Positions 7,986 through 25,188 of a stretch of DNA of 25,188 bases are shown one piece after another. Under the pieces are notes generated by a model. That model was not told the origin of the DNA. It worked only from the letters and a program-made list of their open reading frames with translations, and made no database searches. This DNA is from a virus. Where the stretch lies: positions 1-25,188 of IMG/VR virus record IMGVR_UViG_3300020162_001676. One strand, written 5' to 3'. Position 1 is the stretch's first letter. Each line of letters opens with the position of its first letter. Made by a program: the position numbers and the translations under genes.

Positions 7986-8957
7986 CTATCCTACCATGAA
8001 ATCAACCGGGAGTTCATACCGGTTTTGCATTTCCGTTTCTATTTGTCGTATTTCTTCCATGGATTCATCGTAGATTTGTTGCCCATTCATTTCCACACCG
8101 CCAGGTAGTTTCATGCCTTGGAACTTCTTCATGTTGTCACCCCATTGCCGCTTAATCAATGATGTGGCATATCGTTTCAAGAACATGTCGTTGTACACTT
8201 CACTGTACACTTCTGGATCAATGATGGCACTGACTTCAAAGATGACATGATCTCCGATGGTAAATGTCTCGGCCCAATTCACATCAAGATAGATACGATT
8301 CATTTTTCTGTTGAATCGAATGGTTCTTTCACCTGCAAACATGTCATCAAGTAATTGTAAGTGCATTTTTACTTGATTATAATAGGTAACGTCAGATGAC
8401 AACAAATTATACATATCGTTTAAGCGAAATTGATACACAACATTGAAAATGTTTGTGGATCCCGTGTTGCTACTACCTGCAGATCCCACTGGAAACACCC
8501 GAATCACGCCTGTGATGTTGTCAGCAACATTAAAATATCCGCGAGCCAAACTTCCTTGGGTGTAGCCTAGTGTTGCATGCAATCCTGTAGAAAATCCAGA
8601 AGTTTGTCCTGTAATAGTTTCACTATTTTGAAACGCTTTGGTCTCATTTTTGATGTCAATGGTGTTGATGCTGGTAATGTTATGAATAACCCCAGATGCT
8701 CCAGAGGTGCCCCCGACGAGTGTTTCACCCGCGGTGAAGTTGTTTGCCAACACGGATGATAGCTTCAATGTTGATGCTGTGATTTCTTCAGAAAGATACA
8801 TCTTCTCCACGCCATCAAAGTGATATTCCTGCCAAAATTCGACGGCATCTTGAATTCTATCTTCTATTTGGTCATCATCAACATTGATTTCAATGACAGG
8901 ATATCCTAAACGACGCAAACAGTAATCTTTTAATTGTTGTCGTGTTGTAATAGGCAT
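7986..8957 (-). CDS. 13: Neck protein gp13 with an inserted module
   Basis: Head-completion neck protein, partner of gp14. I take the ATG at 8957, preceded by AAAGAG; an in-frame GTG two codons earlier is overlapped by the ribosome binding site and less likely. The product is 323 aa (T4 309). The N terminus (ITTRQQLKDYCLRRLGYPVI, DRIQDAVEFWQEYHFDGVEK) and the C-terminal half (RQWGDNMKKFQGMKLPGGVE) are typical of the family. Between about residues 63 and 138 there is a segment with a doubled motif (GETLVGGTSGASGVI and SETITGQTSGFSTGL), a form I associate with phage fibre and structural proteins. It appears inserted into the canonical gp13 fold. A late promoter lies about 40 nt upstream of the start. 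Confidence 0.93.
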   Translation of the reverse strand: MPITTRQQLKDYCLRRLGYPVIEINVDDDQIEDRIQDAVEFWQEYHFDGVEKMYLSEEITASTLKLSSVLANNFTAGETLVGGTSGASGVIHNITSINTIDIKNETKAFQNSETITGQTSGFSTGLHATLGYTQGSLARGYFNVADNITGVIRVFPVGSAGSSNTGSTNIFNVVYQFRLNDMYNLLSSDVTYYNQVKMHLQLLDDMFAGERTIRFNRKMNRIYLDVNWAETFTIGDHVIFEVSAIIDPEVYSEVYNDMFLKRYATSLIKRQWGDNMKKFQGMKLPGGVEMNGQQIYDESMEEIRQIETEMQNRYELPVDFMVG

Positions 8958-8972
8958 GTTCACTCTTTAGTA

Positions 8973-9004
8973 AAATAGTTGGAAAATTCTCTTCCCAACT
9001 ATTT
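8973..9004 (-). terminator. Stem-loop after the sugar gene, overlapping a late promoter
   Basis: A perfect 10-bp inverted repeat (AAATAGTTGG with CCAACTATTT, 12-nt loop) lies just after the stop of the 365-aa gene and before gp13. On the minus strand the stem ends in CCAACTATTTTA, a short U-rich tail that could make a weak intrinsic terminator. The upstream arm shares bases with the late promoter octamer. The hairpin is plain in the sequence; termination is inferred. Confidence 0.5.
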
Positions 9005-9007
9005 ATA
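9000..9007 (-). promoter_or_regulatory. T4-type late promoter before gp13
   Basis: Exact TATAAATA on the minus strand, about 43 nt upstream of the gp13 ATG, in the 57-nt gap that separates the fibre/sugar region from the neck and packaging operon. It would drive gp13 through gp17 late in infection, independent of the genes upstream. Confidence 0.75.
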
Positions 9008-9014
9008 AGAACTT

Positions 9015-10112
9015 CTATTTGTTATCTTCATAATACTGCGATAACCATTTCCAATCAACAGTTTTTTTCAACTGGGTTGGGCTGTCCTTATGCTTTGCTG
9101 CATAGTCATGACCATCTCTGGCGCCTTTTAACACCCAAAATGCGTTATCTCCCTCAGCAAAAGCTAACCAACGAGATAACCAATATTGTGAGTTTTGGTC
9201 AAATCTTAGAGTTAATTTAACAGTTTCACGAAACGCTGTTCTCCAGGCCTCATATTCCGATGTTGCAAATATGCCCTCACTTGCTGTTCTAGGATCGGAA
9301 TAACACGGACTATATTGGGTGAAATCTAATCCAAAATCTTCGGGGGTATTTAATACTAAATTTTTATTATAACACACAATGCCCATATGACCATATTCTA
9401 AACGATTGCTCATATTTTTCGAATTAAAAACAATGTGTGCATTTGTTACATCTGGTACGTAATCAAATACTGAAATATCGGTAACGTAATTTTTACCGGT
9501 TACAACAAAAAAATGATCGCTAGTTTTAGTTAAATCCACACATCGCAAAAACATATTTCTTCGACCATCAATCCCATCAACTCGTATAGCCTTAGGATAT
9601 ATCTCAACTAAATGTTTCCAATTTCTATCGGCATTACTTTCCCCATTGCTCGCAAAAAATACAGGTATTTCTTTTTTGTTATAATTTTTTCCTCGAACTG
9701 TGTGTATGACACCCACAGGATCTACTTCAATAATATGTTTAACAGGCCAATCCCACGGAGAATCATAATTCATTTTATATTCATCAATAACAGATTTTTC
9801 TCCTGCCCACCCCGCAATGTATACTAAGTCGTCGGTTTGTTTAATTGAAAAAATCACAGGACCTGAAATATGAATCCACTTGCCATTATCAAAACAAAAT
9901 AATTTCTTTTTAGAACTAACGTCATCAATAATATTGACGCAATCATGAATGGTTAATTCTTTATCGCCTGCTTGTACCCAACCTTTAGCATCTCTTGCTG
10001 TATGAATAAAATCAGTAAACCAACCTAATGTTCTGACCCACGATTTTTGTTCAATTATCCAATTGTTTTCAAAAAGGTCACTATGCATCAACCAAGATTC
10101 ATTATTTAGCAT
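9015..10112 (-). CDS. Glycosyltransferase-like protein with degraded DxD motif
   Basis: A 365-aa protein. Residues about 149-265 resemble a GT-A-like domain common in T4-like phages (PVFFASNGESNADRNWKHLV, KAIRVDGIDG, FFVVTGKNYV, SNRLEYGHMGIVCYNK). In the relatives I know, the central motif reads VVDGDxEV; here it reads VVTGKN (residues 203-208), so both acidic residues of the sugar-nucleotide site are replaced. The first 145 residues and the C-terminal part (WLSRWLAFAEGDNAFWVLKG) are not recognised. It is coupled to the upstream glycosyltransferase by a TAATG overlap. It may be a non-catalytic partner of that enzyme, a carbohydrate-binding protein, or an enzyme with a different metal site. 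Family resemblance is from memory of the motif and not from a search. Confidence 0.55.
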   Translation of the reverse strand: MLNNESWLMHSDLFENNWIIEQKSWVRTLGWFTDFIHTARDAKGWVQAGDKELTIHDCVNIIDDVSSKKKLFCFDNGKWIHISGPVIFSIKQTDDLVYIAGWAGEKSVIDEYKMNYDSPWDWPVKHIIEVDPVGVIHTVRGKNYNKKEIPVFFASNGESNADRNWKHLVEIYPKAIRVDGIDGRRNMFLRCVDLTKTSDHFFVVTGKNYVTDISVFDYVPDVTNAHIVFNSKNMSNRLEYGHMGIVCYNKNLVLNTPEDFGLDFTQYSPCYSDPRTASEGIFATSEYEAWRTAFRETVKLTLRFDQNSQYWLSRWLAFAEGDNAFWVLKGARDGHDYAAKHKDSPTQLKKTVDWKWLSQYYEDNK

Positions 10113-10819
10113 TATTTTTGCTCTCTTTTCTTCATATGTTTTTTAATAATTTGTTCCTGATTGGTTCCAATACTAGGACCAAACGCCCAATTGCCCACAT
10201 GTCGAATTTGACGGCTTAGATTCATGTCAACAAAAATGTCATATCCTGCGTTTCGAAGTTTTTCTTGAAAAAAGAAATCTTCACCGTGCCATGAATTATC
10301 CTTCCACTCAAAACTGAACCAAGGTTTTTGTATATCATGTAGGATATGGGTTTTCATCAACATACAGCCCATACCAATAGCTTCAACTTTTTCTAGGTCT
10401 GTTTGTGATTCTAAAGGTAACCAGCTATCCCAATCGCCTCGAACTTTATATGCCACGGTAGTTAATGGTGTAGACCGTTTCATATAATTGGCAGCAACAA
10501 TATCTTTATCATGTGCCATTAAACGTAATGCAGTCGTAGGGGGAAACATCATATCAGAATCCAGCCAAAGAATATAATCAGCATTCATTTCTAATGCTTG
10601 TTGTGCTAACTTTTCTCGTTGATTTAACAGAATTGTGCTAGTATCAAACATAGTATACACATCCATTCCCACCTTTGTTGTAGCTTTGACAAGTTCCAGT
10701 AATGATGATGTAAACAAGGTTTCAACTGTATCACGGCACGGAACTAAGATGGCAAGTTTTGTAGGATTATCCTGGTGTTTGCCTGTTTTCCAACTACTTG
10801 TGGTGTAGAGACTTTTCAT
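10112..10819 (-). CDS. GT-A fold glycosyltransferase
   Basis: A 235-aa GT2/Anp1-like transferase. The N-terminal strand KLAILVPCRDTVETLF, the DxD motif in YILWLDSDMMFP (residues 87-89), the acceptor-side GMGCMLMKTHIL and the HGED motif (178-181) in WHGEDFFFQEKLRNAGYDIF form the usual GT-A set, with a late His in RQIRHVGNW. It should transfer a sugar from a nucleotide donor in the cytoplasm; donor and acceptor cannot be read. It overlaps the preceding unknown gene by ATGA and the next gene by TAATG, forming a three-gene unit downstream of the 92-aa fibre-locus gene. Fibre or host-surface glycosylation is an inference from place. Confidence 0.8.
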   Translation of the reverse strand: MKSLYTTSSWKTGKHQDNPTKLAILVPCRDTVETLFTSSLLELVKATTKVGMDVYTMFDTSTILLNQREKLAQQALEMNADYILWLDSDMMFPPTTALRLMAHDKDIVAANYMKRSTPLTTVAYKVRGDWDSWLPLESQTDLEKVEAIGMGCMLMKTHILHDIQKPWFSFEWKDNSWHGEDFFFQEKLRNAGYDIFVDMNLSRQIRHVGNWAFGPSIGTNQEQIIKKHMKKREQK

Positions 10820-11641: not shown

Positions 11642-13798
11642 TTAACGAGATTTTTTTAACTCAGCAACTTCGGCTTGTAATTCCTTGATGGCTTCAATTA
11701 ATAATGGAATCATCTTTTCATACTTCACCGCCTTGAATCCATCTTCTCTATCTGCAACAACTTCTGGAAGAACAGCTTCAACTTCTTGAGCAATCACCCC
11801 TACATCGTGACGGCGTACAAAGTATCCATCTTCTCCTCCTCTACTATCTATATGACTTTGTGTCCAGTCAAATTCTACGCCGCGAATCTGACTCAATTTT
11901 TCTAGTGCATTAGTAATAGGTGTTACATTTTCCTTTAATCGGGCATCAGATGAGTAGAAGGCAGTAACTTCACCTGTTGCTCTAACTTCATTGGTCGCGC
12001 CGGCAGTACCCACACCAACGCCTCCAAACTGAACGTTTGATGATGTGGTAATTGCCTGAGGGATAGAGATGGTAACGGCACCTGTGGCACCTGACACAGT
12101 AATGCCTGTGCCTGCCACGTTACTTGTCACCCCTGTATTAGTAATTGTAACTGCGGCAGATCCGTTATAACTTGAACCACCTAAACCCGAACCAATGGTT
12201 AATGTGTTTGCCACTGAACTTGCAGCACCTGTCAACGTTGCAGTAATCGTTCCCGCGCTAAAGTTGCCTGAGGCATCTCGTGCAACGATTGCAGACGCAG
12301 TATTGGCATTTGTCGCAGTCGTAGCACTATTACTTACCTTGAGCGCAGTACTAATTGTTGCCAATTTAGTATCAACAATTGCTGCCGAAGCACTAATGTC
12401 TCCGTTGACAATTGTGCCATCAACAATCATCGCACTGGTTACAACTCCTGATGCTATTGTTGTTGTGTTCCCCACGGAAGTAACATGCCCAGTGAGATTG
12501 GCGTTGGTTGTGACATTGCCCGCAGTTAATCCTGCTGCTGTGCCAGTCACGTTGGTCATGGTACCTGATGCTGGGGTTCCCAGAGCAGGCGCAGTCATTG
12601 TTGGGCTAGTTAACGTCTTGTTGGTCAGGGTTTGTGTTCCCGTTAGTGTAACCAACTCAACTTCTGCCGCTGCCAATCCTGCTTTCCAAACATCAGCAGT
12701 TTCATCCCAAATTAATGAGGCGTTTGTAGATGTGCCGCGTTCAATCTCAATACCTGCATTTTGTGATGGCGTCCCTGCTTCATCACTATTTAAAACGAGA
12801 ATGTTGTCGCCAATTGATACGGTATTGGAATTAACGGTTGTTGTTGTTCCATTGACAATTAAATCGCCACTCAGAGTCAAACTAGCGGCGCTTACTGTGC
12901 CTGTGAATGTTGGACTAGCTGAGAATACTAATGTGCCTGTACCTGTTTCATCCGTGACTGCTGTAATAAGATTTGCACTACTAGGAGTTCCTAGAAATGT
13001 AGCAATTCCTGCGCCGAGTGATGTGATGCCTGTGCCACCGTTAGCTACAGGGAGTGTGCCTGTTACGCCAGAACTGAGAGGCAATCCTGTGCAACTTGTA
13101 AGAGTTCCTGAACCAGGTGTTCCTAGGGCAGGGGTCGTTAACGTTGGACTTGTTAACGTCTTGTTAGTTAATGTTTGAGTGGCAGTAAGGGTTGCAACCG
13201 TGTCGCTAGTTCCTGGGAATGCAAATGAAGTAGCATCAGTCCCCGTCAATGTCAGCGAGTTACTTGCTGTTAATGTCTTGCCATCAGCAATGGTTAATGT
13301 TGACCCAGTTGCAGGTGATGTAATAGCAACCTTGTTCACTGATGTGGCTGACGCTGCACCTAACGTTGGTGTCACAAACGTGGGTGACGTTGTAAATGCA
13401 ACTGTGCCACTACCTGATTCATCTGTTAAGGCAGACGCTAAATTTGCACTACTTGGAGTTGCCAAGAAAGCAGCAACGTTAGCCCCTAATCCAGAAACAC
13501 CCGTTGATATCGGGAGTCCTGTGCAACTTGTAAGAGTTCCTGAACCAGGTGTTCCCAGGACAGGTGCAGTCATTGTTGGGCTAGTTAACGTCTTGTTGGT
13601 CAGGGTTTGTGTTCCCGTTAGCGTAACAAGCGTGTCCGTTCCAGAAGGAACAGTTAATGTTGAAGTTCCTGATGTTGTCAATGTCAAAGTGTGTGCGGCT
13701 GACATTGTAAGAGTTGCGCCAGATACACCTACGTTGGTGATGCTTTGAGCGTTGTTATCTAACCCATTTTTTGCGACAAATCGTTTTGTTGTTGCCAT
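11642..13798 (-). CDS. Repetitive tail fibre with C-terminal S74 self-cleaving chaperone
   Basis: A 718-aa fibre. It begins with [20 protein letters not shown], a start I associate with phage fibres, followed by a long Thr/Ser/Ala-rich shaft with three copies of the module [11 protein letters not shown]. Other modules are [14 protein letters not shown] and [20 protein letters not shown], both also present in the 705-aa fibre. The last 102 residues are a peptidase S74/endosialidase-type intramolecular chaperone (SDARLKENV at 617, then [44 protein letters not shown]). In that family the domain trimerises the fibre and cuts itself off at the Ser-Asp site, which is intact here; the mature fibre would be about 616 aa. 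Start has AAGAGGAAAT upstream. Confidence 0.9.
12480..12511 (-). repeat. 32-nt repeat shared with the 705-aa fibre gene (copy at 14303-14334)
   Basis: An exact 32-nt match links the 718-aa and 705-aa fibre genes within the module [16 protein letters not shown] third, diverged copy starts near 14759. The identity at DNA level exceeds what the protein repeat needs, pointing to recent exchange or duplication. Confidence 0.85.
12591..12646 (-). repeat. 56-nt direct repeat, copy 1
   Basis: Exact 56-nt duplicate of 13566-13621 inside the 718-aa fibre gene, coding for the [20 protein letters not shown] module. The copies are 975 nt apart, so recombination between them would remove 325 codons in frame. 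Confidence 0.9.
13085..13123 (-). repeat. 39-nt direct repeat, copy 1 (copy 2 at 13517-13555)
   Basis: Exact 39-nt duplicate within the 718-aa fibre gene coding for [15 protein letters not shown]. The copies are 432 nt apart, a multiple of three, so exchange between them would keep the reading frame. Confidence 0.85.
13566..13621 (-). repeat. 56-nt direct repeat, copy 2
   Basis: Second exact copy of the 12591-12646 sequence, near the N-terminal end of the 718-aa fibre. Confidence 0.9.
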
Positions 13799-13824
13799 GA
13801 TTCTATTTCCTCTTGGCTGTTAAA

Positions 13825-15942
13825 TTATACATTAATTGTTGTTGCCATGACTTTATATACTGTGACTGCGTTTACAGGAGTTGTCAACAAACGAAGATTG
13901 CCCCCTGAAATATCAGCATCAAATGATGCCAACGATACTCCTGTCAGCACAGTACCATATTCTGTGATATATGCACCAGTTCCGTCATGAATCACACTAA
14001 CTTCTGTCATGTGATAGGCGGATCCTGAAGTGATGGAAATTTGATATTTCACACTTCTATATGTTGCAACTGCAATACTATCTAATACTTGGTCTGCTGT
14101 AGTTGCAGATGTTGTTAATGTAACTGAACGTAGAATACCGTTAGCCAATGCTACAGATGTTGCTGATGCCACCCCTAATGTAGGAGTTACCAATGTGGGG
14201 CTTGTAGCAAATACTGCCGCACCAGATCCTGTTTCATCTGTTAATGCAGTAGCAAGTTGAGAAGAAGTGAATGATCCAAGTACCGCAGCGTTTCCGACCG
14301 ATGTAACATGCCCAGTGAGATTGGCGTTGGTTGTAACGTTACCAGCAGTTAATCCTGATGCTGTACCTGTCACGTTTGTCATGATACCAGACGCAGGTGT
14401 TCCCAAGGCAGGGGATGTTAACGTTGGACTTGTTAACGTCTTATTAGTTAGTGTTTGTGATCTAGTTAGAGTAACAACTTCAACACCCTCAACTGTAATA
14501 ACACCTGCAGCAGAACGAGCAATAGTGGTATCGCTTTCATTACCTAAATCCAACGTACCAAGAACAGTAGCATTACCATTGCTTGCTAAAGTTATATTAG
14601 TTAATGTAAGACTTGAACCTGTCGCTGCACCTATAGCTGGAGTAACTAATGTTGGGGTATTCGCAAATACTGCTGCACCTGAACCAGTTTCATCTGTTAG
14701 TGCAGTAGACAATTGACTAGATGTAAAACTACCAAGAACAGTAGCGTTTCCGACTGAGGTAACATGCCCTGTTAAGTTGGCGTTGGTTGTAACGTTACCC
14801 GCAGTTAATCCTGCTGCTGTACCTGTTACATTGGTCATGATACCAGACGCCGGTGTTCCTAATGCTGGGGTGACCAATGTGGGACTTGTGGCAAATACTA
14901 ATGCACCTGAACCAGTTTCATCAGTAACAGCTGTTGCCAGCTGAGCTGAGGTGGCAGTCAGTGTGTTGCTTGTAAGATCAATGGTTTTGTTGGTGAGTGT
15001 CTGTGTCCCACTGATGGTTGCTAAAGCTACTTCAGATCCTGCCAATCCTGCCACCCATGCATCACTGGTTTCATTCCATAACAAAGACGCATCTGTGCTA
15101 GTGCCACGTTCAATCAATAACCCTGCATCTTGTGATGGCGCCCCTGTTTCATCACTATTTAAAATGATGATGTTATCGCCAATTGATACGGTATTGGAAT
15201 TAACAGTAGTGGTAGTGCCGTTCACTGTGAGGTTTCCTGATACTATCATGTCATTGAATGTGACATTACTACCTGTGCCTACAGCTTGCCCAATAGAAAT
15301 CGCCCCTGACGTAATTGTAACTCCTGTGCCCCCTGAAAAATGAGCACGAACGTCTGAGGCACTAGGACCTGTGTAGGTAATAACTCCTGTGCCTGAGTTA
15401 TATGATAAGCTACCATCACCACTTACATCTGTGACGCTAACAGCGGCTCTGGAACGTGCATCTGTGTACCATAGATTTACAGGACTACCATCTTCGGCAA
15501 TGTCATCGGTGACCAGTGTTCGAGTACCACCTAATGATGTACTGCTCCCATTAATTGTGATACTGCTATTTGTGAGTGAACCGTTGGCGATGTTGCTGAT
15601 GGTGTTGTTGTCACCATTAATGGTCTTGTTGGTAAGAGTTTCTGCTCCTGCCAATGTGCCAAAATCGCCGTCTGACAATGCAGTATTAAACTGAGCAACA
15701 GTGCCTGATAATGTATTGCTTGTTAAATTAACTGTTTTGTTTGTTAATGTAGTAGTACTCGACCCCGTGATGGCAGAGGTGTTAGTTAAATCAGCTCTAG
15801 CTAAAGTAATACCGCCCTGTGTGGAGCCATCATGTATTCTAATTGTTTTTACTTCGGTATCGACAGAAATTTCACCCGCGGCGCCGGTGAAAGCATTATT
15901 CTGAGATGTTGTTCCTCTACGAAACTGTACTTGTGTTGGCAT
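13825..15942 (-). CDS. Repetitive tail fibre with adaptor N terminus and tip-like C-terminal domain
   Basis: A 705-aa fibre. The N-terminal 55 residues (VQFRRGTTSQNNAFTGAAGE, ISVDTEVKTIRIHDGSTQGG) resemble the N-terminal domain of the phage major tropism determinant (Mtd_N type), likely the part that docks the fibre. The shaft is a Thr/Ser/Ala repeat with four LTNKT motifs, a [14 protein letters not shown] module and two copies of [20 protein letters not shown] (one reads TASGLTAG). The last about 100 residues (TADQVLDSIAVATYRSVKYQ, EYGTVLTGVSLASFDADISG) match the separate 137-aa protein at 19083-19496 almost end to end, so this is a movable tip domain. There is no S74 chaperone. Start has TAGGAG upstream. 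Confidence 0.88.
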   Translation of the reverse strand: MPTQVQFRRGTTSQNNAFTGAAGEISVDTEVKTIRIHDGSTQGGITLARADLTNTSAITGSSTTTLTNKTVNLTSNTLSGTVAQFNTALSDGDFGTLAGAETLTNKTINGDNNTISNIANGSLTNSSITINGSSTSLGGTRTLVTDDIAEDGSPVNLWYTDARSRAAVSVTDVSGDGSLSYNSGTGVITYTGPSASDVRAHFSGGTGVTITSGAISIGQAVGTGSNVTFNDMIVSGNLTVNGTTTTVNSNTVSIGDNIIILNSDETGAPSQDAGLLIERGTSTDASLLWNETSDAWVAGLAGSEVALATISGTQTLTNKTIDLTSNTLTATSAQLATAVTDETGSGALVFATSPTLVTPALGTPASGIMTNVTGTAAGLTAGNVTTNANLTGHVTSVGNATVLGSFTSSQLSTALTDETGSGAAVFANTPTLVTPAIGAATGSSLTLTNITLASNGNATVLGTLDLGNESDTTIARSAAGVITVEGVEVVTLTRSQTLTNKTLTSPTLTSPALGTPASGIMTNVTGTASGLTAGNVTTNANLTGHVTSVGNAAVLGSFTSSQLATALTDETGSGAAVFATSPTLVTPTLGVASATSVALANGILRSVTLTTSATTADQVLDSIAVATYRSVKYQISITSGSAYHMTEVSVIHDGTGAYITEYGTVLTGVSLASFDADISGGNLRLLTTPVNAVTVYKVMATTINV

Positions 15943-19523: not shown

Positions 19524-19531
19524 TATTTATA
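19524..19531 (-). promoter_or_regulatory. T4-type late promoter at the head of the fibre locus
   Basis: Exact TATAAATA on the minus strand, 28 nt before the ATG of the 137-aa gene, with space for a leader and the TAGGAT binding site. The TAA stop of the zinc-ribbon gene is embedded in the octamer (GTA TAA ATA). It probably starts the late transcript of the fibre genes. Confidence 0.65.
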
Positions 19532-20189
19532 CATGTGGCTGCCATTTATTTAACGGACATGACGCAGATGCTAGTTGACTTTTTGTTTTCATGAAACATC
19601 CACATTCGTGGCAACGGGATGTATCCTTGTCAAACCGATCACATCCTTCACATGTTAAAAGCCGCTGAAATCCCACTTCAGTTGGTACAAGTACGGGCAA
19701 CCCACGAGCGGCTCGTTTGCCGGTTTTCCACACTTCTTTTGCTAAATTTCTTGCCTGTTGAAATGCCGAAGGAAACGTGTGTAACGATGTTTTTTCAGTT
19801 TCAAGAATTGAATCCACTTCTTTAATCTGTAATCGTTCGCTATCAGAAAAACGGGCTTCTTCATAGCTAGTTCCATTCATCACTTTAGTAATGATTTCTA
19901 TGTCATTCTCAACAACATCTAACACTATACCCTGTCTCCAAAAAGCAGGAGTAGTGTTTTGAGGTGTAAAATAATAGATGCTCGGTGTTAATAATTGTGG
20001 AAATTCCAACTCGTTGTCTGATACACACAATGTATAGAAAGAAATTGGTAAATTAATTATCTTTTCTTCTAATGAAATTTGTGCAGTAGTTTTTTCCGTT
20101 TTACATCCTTGTGCAACAAGTAAAATCATAACTGGGCGTGTTGCTTCACTCACTATGTTTTTTACAGCGTCTTTCATTTCTGTTATCAT
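19527..20189 (-). CDS. Protein with C-terminal six-cysteine zinc ribbon
   Basis: A 220-aa protein. The C-terminal 45 residues carry C180, C183, C193, C196, C198 and C211 (LTCEGCDRFD, RCHECGCFMKTK, ASCPLNKW), a short zinc-ribbon form I have seen repeatedly at the ends of T4-like phage proteins. The N-terminal half (RPVMILLVAQGCKTEKTT, LLTPSIYYF) has a beta-alpha-beta look with a TPS turn that could be a degenerate thioredoxin-like fold without a CxxC pair; this is weak. The middle (EVDSILETEKTSLHTFPSAF) is helical. It lies between the epimerase gene and the fibre locus. Function unknown; a nucleic-acid or protein-binding role is possible. Confidence 0.75.
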   Translation of the reverse strand: MITEMKDAVKNIVSEATRPVMILLVAQGCKTEKTTAQISLEEKIINLPISFYTLCVSDNELEFPQLLTPSIYYFTPQNTTPAFWRQGIVLDVVENDIEIITKVMNGTSYEEARFSDSERLQIKEVDSILETEKTSLHTFPSAFQQARNLAKEVWKTGKRAARGLPVLVPTEVGFQRLLTCEGCDRFDKDTSRCHECGCFMKTKSQLASASCPLNKWQPHV

Positions 20190-20235: not shown

Positions 20236-21114
20236 TTAATATCCTAGTATCGGACGATACCATTCAATAACTTCATCTATACCCTTCTCGAATGTTATTG
20301 TAGGTTTCCAATCTAGTAAGCGGGCAGAAGAATCATTACTCATATATCCCGCATCAGCCGTTTCTTCGCCAACACGTGCATTTTTATACACAATTGTACC
20401 TTTTCCAATACGTTTTACTATTTGTTCCGCTACCTCTCCCACTGTCATAATTTCACCTGATCCTACGAAAACCCCATCTACTTGGTTAATTTTGTCCATA
20501 CGCTCTACCGCATTTGCAAATGCTTTAGCAACATCTCGCACATGAACGAGGTCTGCATTTTTATTTCCCCACACTTCTAGATTTACATCTTTCAGCGCAT
20601 TTTCAATAAACTTAGGAACAATTTTAATAATTTTTGTACTTTGGCGCGGGCCATATACATTGAAAATACGTAAGGCGGCTGCCTGTAATTTATACTTATT
20701 GCCATATGCAAAAGCTAATTCTGCCCCTGTTCTTTTTGTAATAGTATATGGAGCTAACCAACGTGAACCAACGTCCACTGTTAAAATATCAGAACGTACT
20801 GATGCACATGCCTCATATACATTTACCGCGCCATGAATATTTGAATCCACACACTCATGGATATGATTCCATGTTTCGGATGTTCCCAAAATTCCTGCTA
20901 AGTGTATGGTTAGGTCGGGACGTATTTCTTCGAATACTTTTTGAACCCGGACATAATTAGTAATGTCTAATGGAACATATCTAACCTTATCAGAGATTTT
21001 CCATTCCATGTTTCTATCAACAGAAATTACATCGTGTCCTCTGTTAATTAATTCTTCAACAACATGACTACCTATAAATCCAGCGCCGCCGGTAACTAAA
21101 ATTCGTTTCTTCAT
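20236..21114 (-). CDS. NAD-dependent sugar epimerase/dehydratase
   Basis: A 292-aa extended short-chain dehydrogenase. Rossmann motif GGAGFIGS (residues 9-16) with Asp33 in SVDRN binding the NAD ribose, LAGILG (72-77) as the second cofactor loop, and the catalytic YTITK (Tyr123, Lys127). FNVYGPRQ and the late VHVRDVAKAFANA match nucleotide-sugar 4-epimerases and 4,6-dehydratases (UDP-glucose or UDP-GlcNAc types). It is slightly short (about 310-340 is usual). It would make an activated sugar for the adjacent transferases. AAAGGATT precedes the ATG. Exact substrate cannot be told. Confidence 0.9.
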   Translation of the reverse strand: MKKRILVTGGAGFIGSHVVEELINRGHDVISVDRNMEWKISDKVRYVPLDITNYVRVQKVFEEIRPDLTIHLAGILGTSETWNHIHECVDSNIHGAVNVYEACASVRSDILTVDVGSRWLAPYTITKRTGAELAFAYGNKYKLQAAALRIFNVYGPRQSTKIIKIVPKFIENALKDVNLEVWGNKNADLVHVRDVAKAFANAVERMDKINQVDGVFVGSGEIMTVGEVAEQIVKRIGKGTIVYKNARVGEETADAGYMSNDSSARLLDWKPTITFEKGIDEVIEWYRPILGY

Positions 21115-21128
21115 ATAATCCTTTTATT

Positions 21129-21842
21129 TTATTGATGTTTTTCTAAGAAAAATTTTACAGCATCTTGCTGATTAACTTCATCTAAATCTTCAATTTTTTT
21201 ATTATACCAATACTTTATATTATGTATAATGGGCTTTTCATATACTATATAATCCTCATATCCCCCTTGACAATATTCATTTTCAAGGGGAGTCCAATGC
21301 ATATTATTACAAATCATAATAAATTGTATCAGTCTGTCGGTATAACTACAATTACGATTATCATCAGCGCATGCTTTTGCCCAATTAATTTCTTGTAGTT
21401 TTAAATAAGAATCAATAAACGAGTTTCTTGAAATAATAGAACCGCCACCTGGAAATCCAGACCCACCTCCCCATCCTATTTCTGGGAAATTTTTAATGAT
21501 TCCGTGAATCCACACATCGTCTTCCATATGCACAAACCACTCAACATCCTTCATTTCTGTAACTAAACTAACATAAATTCTATGCAAAAAATGTAACCCA
21601 CTTGCCAATTCCCTGATGGGTAATGATGGTGAGTAATCTACATTGTGAGGGAGTCGATACATCTTTTTATAAAAAACATTATGTTTTTTACATATTTCTT
21701 CATATTCTGAAGAAATATCTTCCCATACAGTTACAGGAGATTCAGGATAATATTTTTTTATTTGACGTAGATTCATTTCAACTGCACAAGGATTTTTTGC
21801 TGATTGATAAAAGAATCCTAATTTTTTTGAATCAAACTCCAT
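21129..21842 (-). CDS. Putative GT-A-like glycosyltransferase
   Basis: A 237-aa protein with a GT-A layout: KLGFFYQSAKNPCAVEMNLR, IKKYYPESPVTVWED at the front, an acidic metal-site candidate in WFVHMEDDVWIHG (107-109), a Gly-rich turn (GWGGGSGFPGGG) and a late EYCQGGYEDYIV. I do not recognise the exact family. The gene is very AT-rich (one 60-nt stretch from 21181 is 20% GC). It overlaps the upstream gene by TAATG and lies 14 nt before the epimerase gene, so it is part of the sugar cassette. Confidence 0.65.
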   Translation of the reverse strand: MEFDSKKLGFFYQSAKNPCAVEMNLRQIKKYYPESPVTVWEDISSEYEEICKKHNVFYKKMYRLPHNVDYSPSLPIRELASGLHFLHRIYVSLVTEMKDVEWFVHMEDDVWIHGIIKNFPEIGWGGGSGFPGGGSIISRNSFIDSYLKLQEINWAKACADDNRNCSYTDRLIQFIMICNNMHWTPLENEYCQGGYEDYIVYEKPIIHNIKYWYNKKIEDLDEVNQQDAVKFFLEKHQ

Positions 21843-22645
21843 TATAAAAATGACCTTTTAAATTTATAGGGACGTTGGTCTAATAATGCATTAGGACTAT
21901 AGTTAGAAATTTCATCTATATCAATAGATTCTCCACACATATATCTAGTAGAAAATGCATATGGATTATATTCTTTCTTGTATTCAAGATTGTAAAAATC
22001 AATGAACGGGTGTGCTGTATTTAACGCATTAATGAAACAGGGGGATACTGGATAGAAATAAATTTTTCTATCATAGTGTGGAGTGATATGGCATCCTCCA
22101 AACGGTACATGTGAGGTGTGGTAGAATATTTTTCCGTAATATTTGCAAGGAAGTGTGTTAGGAAGTTGCTCAAATGCCTCTCCTTCTTTTTCAATAGAAT
22201 ATAAATGTCCTTCTCGTTTCCAAATGTGTGCCTGAGAAAAAAATTCAGAAGGATGTACAACAATACTATTTTTTTGGCGATTTAATCCTTTAAACAAATC
22301 TAGAACGTCATATTCACTTATTTGTGAAAGATGTGATAAATCAAAATCTACCGTAAAAATAGCGGTATCTGGAAGAACTAAATTGTATTCATCTAATACA
22401 AAATAATCTTCTATACTGGGGGGAGTACTATCATATTCTACTTTTACAAAATTTAAATGATTGTAATCCTGTAAAAATTTTCTATAGGCAGTTACATGAT
22501 ATTGTGTGTCTTTATGAGATTCATCATATAAAATGGTAAATTTAACTTCAACAGTGCCCTGTAAATGTTTTTGCCAACTATCAACTAACGCCTTGGTTTG
22601 ACATTCTCTATTTTTTCCTAGAATAAAAATATTAAGAGGTTTCAT
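21842..22645 (-). CDS. Putative glycosyltransferase-like protein
   Basis: A 267-aa protein. The start KPLNIFILGKNRECQTKALV with a following DSW resembles a GT-A first strand and helix. AIFTVDFDLSHL (DFD, residues 100-102) is a plausible DxD site. The C-terminal part (HTSHVPFGGCHITPHYDRKI, then HPFIDFYNLEYKKEYNPYAF) is unique to me. It is joined to its upstream neighbour by ATGA and downstream by TAATG. Enzyme class is inferred from motif and company; donor and acceptor are unknown. Confidence 0.6.
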   Translation of the reverse strand: MKPLNIFILGKNRECQTKALVDSWQKHLQGTVEVKFTILYDESHKDTQYHVTAYRKFLQDYNHLNFVKVEYDSTPPSIEDYFVLDEYNLVLPDTAIFTVDFDLSHLSQISEYDVLDLFKGLNRQKNSIVVHPSEFFSQAHIWKREGHLYSIEKEGEAFEQLPNTLPCKYYGKIFYHTSHVPFGGCHITPHYDRKIYFYPVSPCFINALNTAHPFIDFYNLEYKKEYNPYAFSTRYMCGESIDIDEISNYSPNALLDQRPYKFKRSFL

Positions 22646-23568
22646 AATTGAAATTGTGATAGGTCGGGTCGTCCAGTTCGTGCTCGTTCTGATACAGTTT
22701 TATTTTTAAAGTCTACTCCTGAATATTTTTCATATTGTTCAACTGTACGAACATTTCCTAATCCATACATGCCTAAAGATATATGATTTTCCATATTTAA
22801 TAAAGTTTCTAGTCTGCGTAAACTTACATCAGTTAATTTTCTAGCATTATCACCATGGTCTTCACTGTATTCTTTTCTGTACCCACGGTCATGTTTATGA
22901 AATGCCATATTTTTTGCTGTCACATAATGATTGTATCCATGTGAAAATGATCGTACGGCTAGGGAAATTTCTTCACCTAGAAAAAACATATCTGGATCAT
23001 ACGGAACATCATAAATCCATTGCTTAGGTCCAAAAAGATTACAGGCGGTTAAGAAACTGTTTAACACAGGTTTCTCTGTGACATCACGCACATCAAACAT
23101 TTGAAGTAAGACGCTTACCCAAAAATTTGTGGCTCGGGATGCCGCCATCTTAGTAGGACTATTATCCCAGTTATAACACTCATTGGGCGGTCCCCATTGA
23201 GGAACTGCACACGACATGATGGCTTTAGGATCTTCAGTTTGATGAAATTGTTCAATTAAACTTACATCCCAATCTTGAATGAAGTCCATATGTGAATCTA
23301 TCAGCCAAAAGAAATCTTCATCTTTATGAAGATGGAAAGCCAAACTCCGCGCCCAACTACATCCTTTACTTTGAAAGGCGGGCACCTTTATGACACGATG
23401 TTCCACCCCATAATAATCTAATTCTTCGTGTTCTTCTGAACCATACTGCCAACAAATACCTAATACAATATTTTCAGGATGTTTTGCCTTGGTCACTAAA
23501 TTTTTGATGGTATACTGTAGTAGTGGATCACGATAACTTGCAATATTTACAAAAATTTTATTGTTCAT
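22642..23568 (-). CDS. GT60-like (Pfam GlcNAc) glycosyltransferase, short paralog
   Basis: A 308-aa protein with the signature of the GlcNAc (PF11397/GT60) family: IFVNIASYRDPLLQYTI at the start, PENIVLGICWQ, KGCSWARSLA, the DxH metal motif in WLIDSHMDFIQDWD (91-101), and FFLGEEISLAVRSFSHGYN followed by AFHKHDR. Known eukaryotic members transfer GlcNAc to hydroxyproline of Skp1 or to Thr of mucins. It is about 40% similar by eye to the next gene upstream and overlaps it by ATGA, so the pair is a tandem duplication. It lacks the C-terminal extension of its paralog. Likely cytoplasmic, as no signal or membrane segment is present. Confidence 0.85.
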   Translation of the reverse strand: MNNKIFVNIASYRDPLLQYTIKNLVTKAKHPENIVLGICWQYGSEEHEELDYYGVEHRVIKVPAFQSKGCSWARSLAFHLHKDEDFFWLIDSHMDFIQDWDVSLIEQFHQTEDPKAIMSCAVPQWGPPNECYNWDNSPTKMAASRATNFWVSVLLQMFDVRDVTEKPVLNSFLTACNLFGPKQWIYDVPYDPDMFFLGEEISLAVRSFSHGYNHYVTAKNMAFHKHDRGYRKEYSEDHGDNARKLTDVSLRRLETLLNMENHISLGMYGLGNVRTVEQYEKYSGVDFKNKTVSERARTGRPDLSQFQL

Positions 23569-24827
23569 ATATTTCTTTCCATACGGTCATGCCAACCTTT
23601 AGATTTAGAATGAGGCCAGAATATCCATTTTTTTGGTTGAGTTTCTGTATGAAACTCTCTCCAAATTTTAATATATTCTTCTGTGGATTTTTGATTGAGA
23701 TACTTCTGTATTTCTTCTGCGTTCACATCTCTGCGATATACTTCTTTTCCATGTTCATCTTCAAATGCAATAACCCAGGTTGTGTAATCATCGTCGGGAA
23801 CAGTAGAATATGAAATATCAATACAGTGTTTAAAAATTCGTAACCAAGATTTCTCATACTCATCTTCTGATAATATAGGATTGGGCGGATATAATGTGTC
23901 CTTGGTATATTGCTGTATGGAACGTTTCTTAAAATTTATTCCAGCATATTTTTCATAATCTTCTAATGTTCGAACAGGTCCAAATCCATACCGCCCAAAA
24001 TCAATATTTTGTATTTCTCCATCCATTTCAAATAATTTTCTGTTTCGGGCATGACATAATGCATTTTTTTCACCCCATTTCTTGTCATCATCCCATTGTT
24101 TGCTTCTACCTTTTCTTGTATACTCGTGCCAGGCAATCACCTTGTGAGGATGAAATAAATCATATCCCCATGTATATGCTCTGGCAGCAATGGAAATTTC
24201 TTCACCGTGAAAATAATAATTAGGATCATGTTGAACTTCTTGAGCAAAACTTCCTAACGTAAAACAGAAATGTGCGGAATAAAATCTTGAGGCAACAGGC
24301 TCAGTCAATTCTTTCCAATTGGGAATATCTGTAGGTAAAAAGAAAACGGCGCCTTCAGGAATGAATCTATCAAAAACCATTCGCCAAGGAGCTTCTGCTC
24401 TTTTTTCAGGATCATTTTCAGGATCAAAGGAAGAAATGTATGATGTTAGTACAGGTTTAGGATATCCTTTATCTTGTAATTGTGTAATCATACTAATACA
24501 TTCAGTGTCCCAATTTTTAATGAATCTATGATGAGAATCTAACTGTAATGTATATTCTTCGTTCTGATATACTTTTTGTATTAAGTTTCTAGCCCAACAT
24601 GCACCTTGAGATTCTTCATACGGAATATCAATGATTCTAAATCTAGGATCTCCTCGAAATTCATCTAATGTATCCCATGTGTCATTGTTGTTATGTTGCC
24701 AAGCTATTCCAAATACTAAATTTTCAGGAAACGCAGCTTGTGCCAAACAGTCTTTAATTGTTGGCACAAGCTGTGGATCACGATAACTTGCAACCTGAAT
24801 AAAAATTTTATTGTTCATACTATTCAT
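23565..24827 (-). CDS. GT60-like (Pfam GlcNAc) glycosyltransferase, long paralog
   Basis: A 420-aa protein. Motifs: IFIQVASYRDPQLVPTI, PENLVFGIAWQ, ESQGACWARNLI, DxH in LQLDSHHRFIKNWD (97-107), FHGEEISIAARAYTWGYD (207-223) and VIAWHEYTR (230-238). Residues about 277-303 (FGRYGFGPVRTLEDYEKYAG) are shared with the shorter paralog. Residues about 315-420 are an extra C-terminal domain (ISYSTVPDDDYTTWVIAFED, HSKSKGWHDRMERNI) not seen in it. Two starts are possible; the second Met gives MNNKIF, identical to the paralog's start, and neither has a strong binding site. It is directly downstream of the Thr/Pro-rich structural protein, which may be its substrate (inference). Confidence 0.87.
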   Translation of the reverse strand: MNSMNNKIFIQVASYRDPQLVPTIKDCLAQAAFPENLVFGIAWQHNNNDTWDTLDEFRGDPRFRIIDIPYEESQGACWARNLIQKVYQNEEYTLQLDSHHRFIKNWDTECISMITQLQDKGYPKPVLTSYISSFDPENDPEKRAEAPWRMVFDRFIPEGAVFFLPTDIPNWKELTEPVASRFYSAHFCFTLGSFAQEVQHDPNYYFHGEEISIAARAYTWGYDLFHPHKVIAWHEYTRKGRSKQWDDDKKWGEKNALCHARNRKLFEMDGEIQNIDFGRYGFGPVRTLEDYEKYAGINFKKRSIQQYTKDTLYPPNPILSEDEYEKSWLRIFKHCIDISYSTVPDDDYTTWVIAFEDEHGKEVYRRDVNAEEIQKYLNQKSTEEYIKIWREFHTETQPKKWIFWPHSKSKGWHDRMERNI

Positions 24828-24846
24828 AATCTAGGGGTAAAATTGC

Positions 24847-25188
24847 TTATATGTGATGATAACCTATAAATTCACTGATTGCGTGAGGTGCAACTGTATC
24901 AGGTCTGCTTACACTACTTGTATTTATATTTGTTGGGCTAGCATTAGGGTCGGCATCCTGTGAAATTGTCTGTAGGGAATAATTTCCTCCTGCCACAGGG
25001 GTGCCTCCTTTATTTGTAACAATTCCTCCGATAGATAAATTGGTACTAGGTAAGACTGGACCAAAAGTATTTGTAGGAGTTGGTGTAAATGTAAATGTAG
25101 GTGTTGATGTATTTGTGATTGTGGGCGTTGCTGTTGCTGTGTTTGTAGGTGTTGCTGTTGTATTTGTAGGTGTTGCCGTTGTGTTTGT
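24847..25188 (-). CDS. Thr/Pro-rich mucin-like structural protein, C-terminal part
   Basis: The 5' end lies outside the window; 113 residues are visible. The first 42 contain 22 Thr and 6 Pro in a loose seven-residue repeat (TNTTATP twice, then TNTATATP, TITNTSTP). A globular end follows (NLSIGGIVTNKGGTPVAGGN) and finishes with VAPHAISEFIGYHHI, a version of the PHxxSEFxGY end that I know from phage virion proteins. The repeat looks like an extended, possibly glycosylated linker or stalk. The next genes downstream are two glycosyltransferases. The reading frame is open from the window edge to its stop 19 nt before the next gene. Confidence 0.78.
   Translation of the reverse strand, partial: TNTTATPTNTTATPTNTATATPTITNTSTPTFTFTPTPTNTFGPVLPSTNLSIGGIVTNKGGTPVAGGNYSLQTISQDADPNASPTNINTSSVSRPDTVAPHAISEFIGYHHI
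24921..24928 (-). promoter_or_regulatory. TATAAATA inside the Thr/Pro-rich gene
   Basis: Exact octamer on the minus strand within the coding sequence (codons for NINT), about 94 nt before the first glycosyltransferase start. It could give late transcription of the sugar cassette, or be chance in an AT-rich codon run. Confidence 0.4.
25092..25188 (-). repeat. 21-nt-type tandem repeat coding TNTTATP
   Basis: Imperfect units of about 21 nt, running off the window edge. Two adjacent units encode TNTTATP; units farther from the window edge are diverged or differ in length (TNTATATP, TITNTSTP, TFTFTP). Confidence 0.75.

Follow-up and report, generated by a model that had tools for sequence, protein, structure and literature searches.

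A candidate mucin-type protein O-glycosylation cassette in a marine T4-like phage, pairing GT60-like enzymes with a Thr/Pro-repeat protein

Do bacteriophages decorate their own proteins with mucin-type O-glycans? This question is raised by one end of a 25,188-nucleotide stretch of viral DNA, hereafter the window (IMG/VR record IMGVR_UViG_3300020162_001676, which consists of the window only and holds no further genome). Here, a gene for a Thr/Pro-repeat protein lies beside two genes for enzymes, e1 and e2, that resemble glycosyltransferase family 60 (GT60). The window derives from a marine T4-like myovirus, in which the terminase shares 49% identity with cyanophage terminases. An initial annotation had proposed that this phage glycosylates its own Thr-rich protein, perhaps by the hydroxyproline chemistry known from the protein Skp1. 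The first part of this proposal gains support from the GT60 membership of the enzymes, from a fold like that of the polypeptide N-acetylgalactosaminyltransferases (GalNAc-T) and from a genetic coupling that exceeds T4-like, random and other-glycosyltransferase controls, while the Skp1 branch was not supported. A phage-encoded mucin-type protein O-glycosylation cassette with the adjacent repeat protein as acceptor is thus the likely reading of the locus. Since the same pairing of enzyme and repeat recurs in unrelated phages and bacteria, phages probably give their own tail proteins a mucin-like coat of sugars.

Read on the minus strand from position 25188, the window starts with TNTTATPTNTTATPTNT..., and a recount of the first 42 residues returned exactly the 22 Thr and 6 Pro given at the outset. 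The reading frame extends past the edge of the window; behind the repeat comes a short tail that looks folded and ends APHAISEFIGYHHI. For the missing 5' portion we turned to a syntenic relative (locus L003, 90% identical), whose intact homologue (8147-9484) encodes 445 residues with 139 Thr (31%), 53 Pro (12%), 26 Cys, 5 Lys and no Arg, which shows that the repeat is a real protein. In this homologue, 18 ATPTNT units alternate with Cys-rich modules. What had been taken for the end of a virion-type or fibre protein is instead a modular Cys-rich, mucin-like protein. In L003, its gene is located between an S74-type tail-fibre gene and the GT60 pair, and the fibre gene is preceded by a gene for a 1904-residue protein, called baseplate-like from its position. 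A domain of ~65 residues (..NYSLxTISxDxDPNASP..APHxIxEFxxYxH) is common to otherwise different mucin-like phage proteins, with 63% over 62 residues against the one from the more distant phage L524, and is recognizable in that of the sister phage L517. It has no match in Pfam, PHROG or cultured phages, as likewise the repeat C-terminus has none among isolated phages, and it is possibly a virion attachment part. Knottin-like Cys-rich modules (18-28 Cys per protein) alternate with Thr/Pro stretches in all three relatives (L003:8147-9484, L524:7582-9045, L517:16882-18285). As these mucin-like proteins contain almost no Lys or Arg, tryptic proteomics would miss them.

The initial annotation had placed two genes with ASYRDP, DSH..WD and GEEIS motifs directly downstream of the repeat; both enzymes indeed carry all three motifs, and e1 begins 19 bp after the repeat gene. 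Overlaps of 4 bp (e1/e2), 4 bp (e2 and a gene for a 267-residue orphan protein) and 1 bp (between this and a gene for a 237-residue orphan) follow, so that the arrangement is that of one operon. The suspected GT60 identity was confirmed by a profile search, in which e1 and e2 scored 250.8 and 172.9 bits against PF11397, respectively, far over the cut-off of 21 bits, and are thus members of this family by the profile test; both also match phrog_24687. Enzyme e1 consists of a GT-A domain (residues ~1-305) and a beta-rich C-terminal domain of ~113 residues. Its landmarks are DSH at 97-99, GEEIS at 208-212 and His234, of which D97, H99, E210 and H234 are invariant in 34 sequences. Structure prediction, suggested earlier as a check, gave an AlphaFold2 model with a mean confidence (pLDDT) of 93, for which Foldseek returned human GalNAc-T2/T4/T1/T12 and Toxoplasma GalNAc-T3 as best folds (E down to 4e-9, TM ~0.5), i.e. 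a GalNAc-T-like fold. The model and the invariant residues together display the GT-A fold, DxH metal motif, GEE motif and later His by which GT60 is recognized. In a profile-based sequence search of the PDB, GalNAc-T7 was the best and sole relevant match, marginal at E=0.016, with DSH aligned to DxH, GEE to GGE and the later His in register. The assignment of the enzymes to the GT60 fold and family is virtually certain.

The C-terminal domain of e1 gave no significant fold match and no lectin family match, and its candidacy as a lectin was dropped for want of the former. In a tree, e2 falls into a different GT60 subclade from e1, mostly proteobacterial and cyanobacterial; the two are hence probably not redundant copies, and recent tandem duplication was rejected on the same ground. 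Within this subclade, e2 (22642-23568) groups with short GT60 proteins of Proteobacteria and Cyanobacteria, and the window thus joins two GT60 genes of different origin. Another e2-type gene (L032:9081-10004) takes part in such a two-origin pair as well, in reversed order.

GT60 comprises peptide α-N-acetylglucosamine (GlcNAc) transferases by which protists begin their mucin-type O-glycans (PMC8724618). With the protist members of GT60/PF11397 (the Trypanosoma cruzi mucin enzyme, Gnt1 of Dictyostelium and Toxoplasma), the window enzymes share the family profile, the DxH and GEE landmarks and the GalNAc-T-like fold, and, in common with protist mucins, the candidate acceptors in phages consist of mucin-like Thr/Pro repeats. 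Unlike these, the window enzymes are encoded by a phage beside the candidate acceptor, e1 has its extra beta-rich C-terminal domain, and there is no membrane anchor or Golgi. The closest solved structures are those of the metazoan polypeptide GalNAc transferases of family GT27, whose DxH and WGGE-like landmarks align with those of the phage enzymes. Yet, the sequence similarity to GT27 is marginal, as noted, and no ricin-type lectin domain was recognized in e1, which may therefore work like GT27 without being a GT27 enzyme.

The coupling of such enzymes to Thr/Pro proteins extends well beyond the window. A protein search of viral contigs yielded 80 GT60 loci, most of which contain long open reading frames (ORFs) with TPTPT-type repeats. 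Scored over whole records, the strict pattern TPTxTPTxTPT was present in 36 of 50 GT60 records, compared to 0/31 T4-like terminase relatives (Fisher p=8e-12) and 3/50 random records (p=4e-12), at least two of these three being microsatellite-like. With ORF inspection added, 43/50 GT60 records had a Thr/Pro protein, and the expectation that the repeat protein is present where the enzymes are was thus upheld in these 43. On the level of genes, at least 20 Thr plus Pro per 40 residues were reached by 125/1536 genes in GT60 loci, 0/1047 in T4-like terminase loci and 3/897 in random viral loci, and loci of a different phage glycosyltransferase, used as a control, contained a Thr/Pro gene in two of 80 cases, one of them also with GT60. 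After reduction at 70% identity, a Thr/Pro gene was found within 10 kb in 16/23 GT60 loci; a Thr/Pro-rich gene was the immediate neighbour on the upstream side in 8/22 and on the downstream side in 0/23 (p=0.0015). Conversely, PF11397 occurred in 15 of 83 records chosen for Thr/Pro repeats and in none of 50 random ones. By genetic linkage and repeat content, the loci show what marks a mucin-type system, namely an initiating enzyme linked to a candidate acceptor of Thr/Ser/Pro-rich tandem repeats. The neighbours of GT60 genes include HtrL/YibB-like proteins (12/112), FkbM methyltransferases (7), PLOD-type and GT25 glycosyltransferases, carbamoyltransferases, epimerases and fucosyltransferases, which is consistent with glycan extension and decoration.

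In bacteria, a Thr/Pro-rich gene lies directly upstream of GT60 in 10/64 loci, downstream in 2/65, and three or more genes away in 2/543; these counts leave out 11 loci that could not be scored, and prophages or binned phage may be among the contigs assigned to bacteria. In a quick tree of 121 reduced sequences, which contains some long branches, a Thr/Pro gene within 5 kb marks 49 of 115 scorable lineages, scattered over the tree with at least 30 state changes. Shared ancestry does not account for the pairing: just 8/50 GT60 records contain the window terminase (with a strong match in two), several records of 170-240 kb have none, and bacteria show the same coupling. Very long Thr/Pro-repeat proteins that end ~20 bp or less from a GT60 gene were seen in Pseudoduganella (L479, L480, L482), Sphingomonas (L454, L455) and Vicinamibacterales (L446), and may represent mucin-type glycosylation pairs of cellular bacteria. 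In locus L285 (G055), a GT60 gene that has diverged strongly (14900-15862) lies 568 bp downstream of a gene (12296-14332) for a 678-residue, 27% Thr protein with TTTTTTVAP repeats, and the same contig encodes a second enzyme of this divergent kind. In another T4-like phage (L595:11823-19612), two GT60 genes and a Thr/Pro protein adjoin a run of four to five consecutive radical-SAM-like genes (CxxxCxxC motifs).

How might such a cassette work? A polypeptide, not lipopolysaccharide (LPS) or DNA, is very probably the acceptor, and the adjacent Thr/Pro protein, encoded just upstream, is likely the main one. In the infected cell and before assembly, e1 and e2 would transfer an N-acetylhexosamine in α linkage to Thr of the repeats. 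UDP-GlcNAc is the most likely donor, for which we see about an even chance. The two orphan proteins and a sugar epimerase encoded next to them could then extend or diversify the glycan. Display of the repeat protein on the virion is reasonably probable; glycosylated, extended and Cys-rich, it would be exposed at the baseplate/tail-fibre end. There it may serve as a hydrated spacer or shield, or change adsorption, roles that we suggest tentatively.

A comparison of related phages adds a point missed by the initial annotation. The sister phage L517 has a baseplate-like protein 80% identical to that of L003, and the DNA of both is 75% identical until two bases past the stop codon of the fibre gene, after which 6.4 kb are unrelated before 76% identity resumes inside a DUF6171-like gene. 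In L003, the block between these flanks holds the mucin-like gene, then the GT60 pair, the two orphans and the epimerase; in L517, the mucin-like gene is followed by an unknown gene, an FkbM methyltransferase, a PF04488 enzyme and a GT2 enzyme. In L524, it is accompanied by an epimerase, an O-fucosyltransferase-family enzyme (PF10250, E=6e-27), GT2 enzymes and a carbamoyltransferase. With differing sugar genes and a mucin-like gene between conserved flanks, mucin and sugar genes appear to be replaced as a unit and to form an exchangeable cassette. Nor was GT60 detected in records of the L517 type (78 and 124 kb in size), so that it is one option among several. PF10250 was considered as a general GT60 substitute and rejected, as it was found in L524 only. 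Conceivably, mucin-type O-glycosylation, familiar from eukaryotes, is a widespread pair of enzyme and acceptor genes in bacteria and phages, and in phages a cassette in which mucin repeat and glycosyltransferases (GT60 or an O-fucosyltransferase-family set) are swapped jointly, like a virion serotype locus, an idea to which we give somewhat less than an even chance.

A cultured phage lends independent support. The Xanthomonas jumbo phage XacN1, unrelated to the window phage, encodes a GT60 homologue (ORF334) with 49% identity to e1, and its ORF325, a giant protein encoded next to a baseplate wedge gene, has Thr/Pro repeats at its C-terminus. XacN1 is reported to have at least two virion glycoproteins, which its authors suggest are made by phage glycosyltransferases (PMC5852040). 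Phage-encoded glycosylation of virion proteins with a proposed shielding role is also on record for mycobacteriophages (Freeman et al. 2023, as cited in PMC12619734); there, capsid and tail-tube subunits carry the glycans at their C-termini, and the portion of PMC12619734 at hand describes no mucin-like acceptor or GT60.

Several points weigh against the mucin-type reading. Seven of the 50 GT60 records are without a qualifying Thr/Pro gene, all seven being incomplete and one having a borderline repeat. Conversely, 68 of the 83 Thr/Pro-rich viral records are without GT60, and none of 47 sampled neighbours of Thr/Pro genes in GT60-less records belonged to a glycosyltransferase family; such repeats thus also exist without GT60. 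L517 has a Thr/Ser/Pro protein in the same position and no GT60. In XacN1, the GT60 gene lies ~9 kb from the repeat gene and adjoins a carbamoyltransferase gene, and the paper leaves unstated which of the virion proteins are glycosylated (PMC5852040). Finally, the literature searched offered no biochemical work on a GT60 enzyme from any phage or bacterium.

Among the alternatives, modification of other virion proteins (Thr-rich S74-type fibres, sheath, capsid), with the mucin-like neighbour as one of several acceptors or a bystander, fares best, albeit as an unlikely explanation. The fibres encoded in the window are rich in Thr, one of the syntenic locus has up to 14 Thr and 5 Pro per 40 residues, and some records have GT60 distant from any Thr/Pro gene. 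However, the GT60-less sister phage has near relatives of those fibres, and the recurrent direct upstream neighbour is a repeat gene, not a fibre gene, also in bacteria, which have no phage fibres. Quite improbable is an alteration of LPS or capsule of the infected cell for superinfection exclusion, as proposed for pelagimyophage glycosyltransferases: although glycosyltransferase genes are found in the host-recognition region of marine T4-like phages, with O-chain modification favoured as their role (PMC7029224), and GT25 and fucosyltransferase genes occur near GT60, the GT60 members of known function act on polypeptides (PMC8724618, PMC6939170), and the best folds of peptide GalNAc transferases, the coupling to repeat proteins and its near absence from the control glycosyltransferase loci speak for such an acceptor here. 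Skp1-like chemistry, with GlcNAc on hydroxyproline after the action of a prolyl hydroxylase, is very improbable. In its favour are the Pro-rich repeats and the presence of the hydroxyproline-specific Skp1 Gnt1 in GT60 (PMC6939170), but Thr exceeds Pro in the L003 protein by the numbers given above. A search beyond the window for a prolyl hydroxylase, the sign that the initial annotation had pointed to, recovered PF13640, the only oxygenase family searched, in 0/43 GT60 records, most of them incomplete, and in 2/7 controls, which favours Thr over hydroxyproline as acceptor. Glycosylation of a hydroxymethylated base against restriction is just as improbable, since the Thr/Pro coupling is seen also in cellular bacteria and the window genes belong to the tail-fibre region rather than to a replication module, even if DNA glycosyltransferases are known from phages and XacN1/RAS14 have GT60 beside a carbamoyltransferase gene, a few kb from DNA polymerase.

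If mucin-type glycosylation by GT60 holds true, phages wear self-made glycans on mucin-like tail proteins, which bears on adsorption, on shielding against proteases and antibodies, and on the question why large aquatic phages have so many glycosyltransferases. The loci in bacteria suggest that this logic of enzyme and acceptor predates the eukaryotic cases of mucin-type O-glycosylation or reaches more widely than they do, and each pair is a possible tool for site-dense O-glycosylation in E. coli. A literature search returned no paper pairing 'bacteriophage' with 'GT60' and none tying phage Thr/Pro repeats to glycosylation.

Table 1. Positions of the mucin-like gene, the GT60 pair and associated features (window coordinates unless a locus is named).
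Feature	Position	Strand	Remarks
Mucin-like protein, C-terminal 113 residues	24847..25188	-	Thr/Pro repeat, then ~65-residue domain ending APHAISEFIGYHHI; 5' end outside window
GT60-like glycosyltransferase e1, 420 residues	23565..24827	-	PF11397, E=3.6e-74
GT60-like glycosyltransferase e2, 308 residues	22642..23568	-	PF11397, E=1.7e-50; without C-terminal domain
267-residue orphan protein, candidate glycan-extension enzyme	21842..22645	-	Operon with e2; syntenic in L003
237-residue orphan protein, candidate glycan-extension enzyme	21129..21842	-	EDDVW motif resembling GT-A acidic motif; syntenic in L003
NAD-dependent sugar epimerase/dehydratase (SDR), possible donor-sugar supply	20236..21114	-	PF01370, E=1.8e-43
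220-residue protein with DUF6171-like Zn-ribbon C-terminus	19527..20189	-	phrog_13558, E=1.9e-15; conserved right flank of the apparently exchangeable cassette
~65-residue domain	24847-25050; L003:9280-9484; L524:8830-9045; L517:16882-17100		
Exchanged block	L003:8134-14514; L517:16863-21658; L524:7582-15730		

Of the remaining genes of the cassette, the two orphans have no match in Pfam, PHROG (E<0.05) or NCBIfam, and the syntenic relative of the 267-residue protein has none among isolated phages. The epimerase resembles dTDP-glucose dehydratase and GalE, yet stays under the NCBIfam equivalog cut-offs. A promoter and terminator scan found no more sites than in shuffled sequences. Elsewhere in the window (9015-10819), a second pair of sugar genes, for an Anp1-like glycosyltransferase and a 365-residue orphan, is located close to the neck genes, in an order that is kept in L595.

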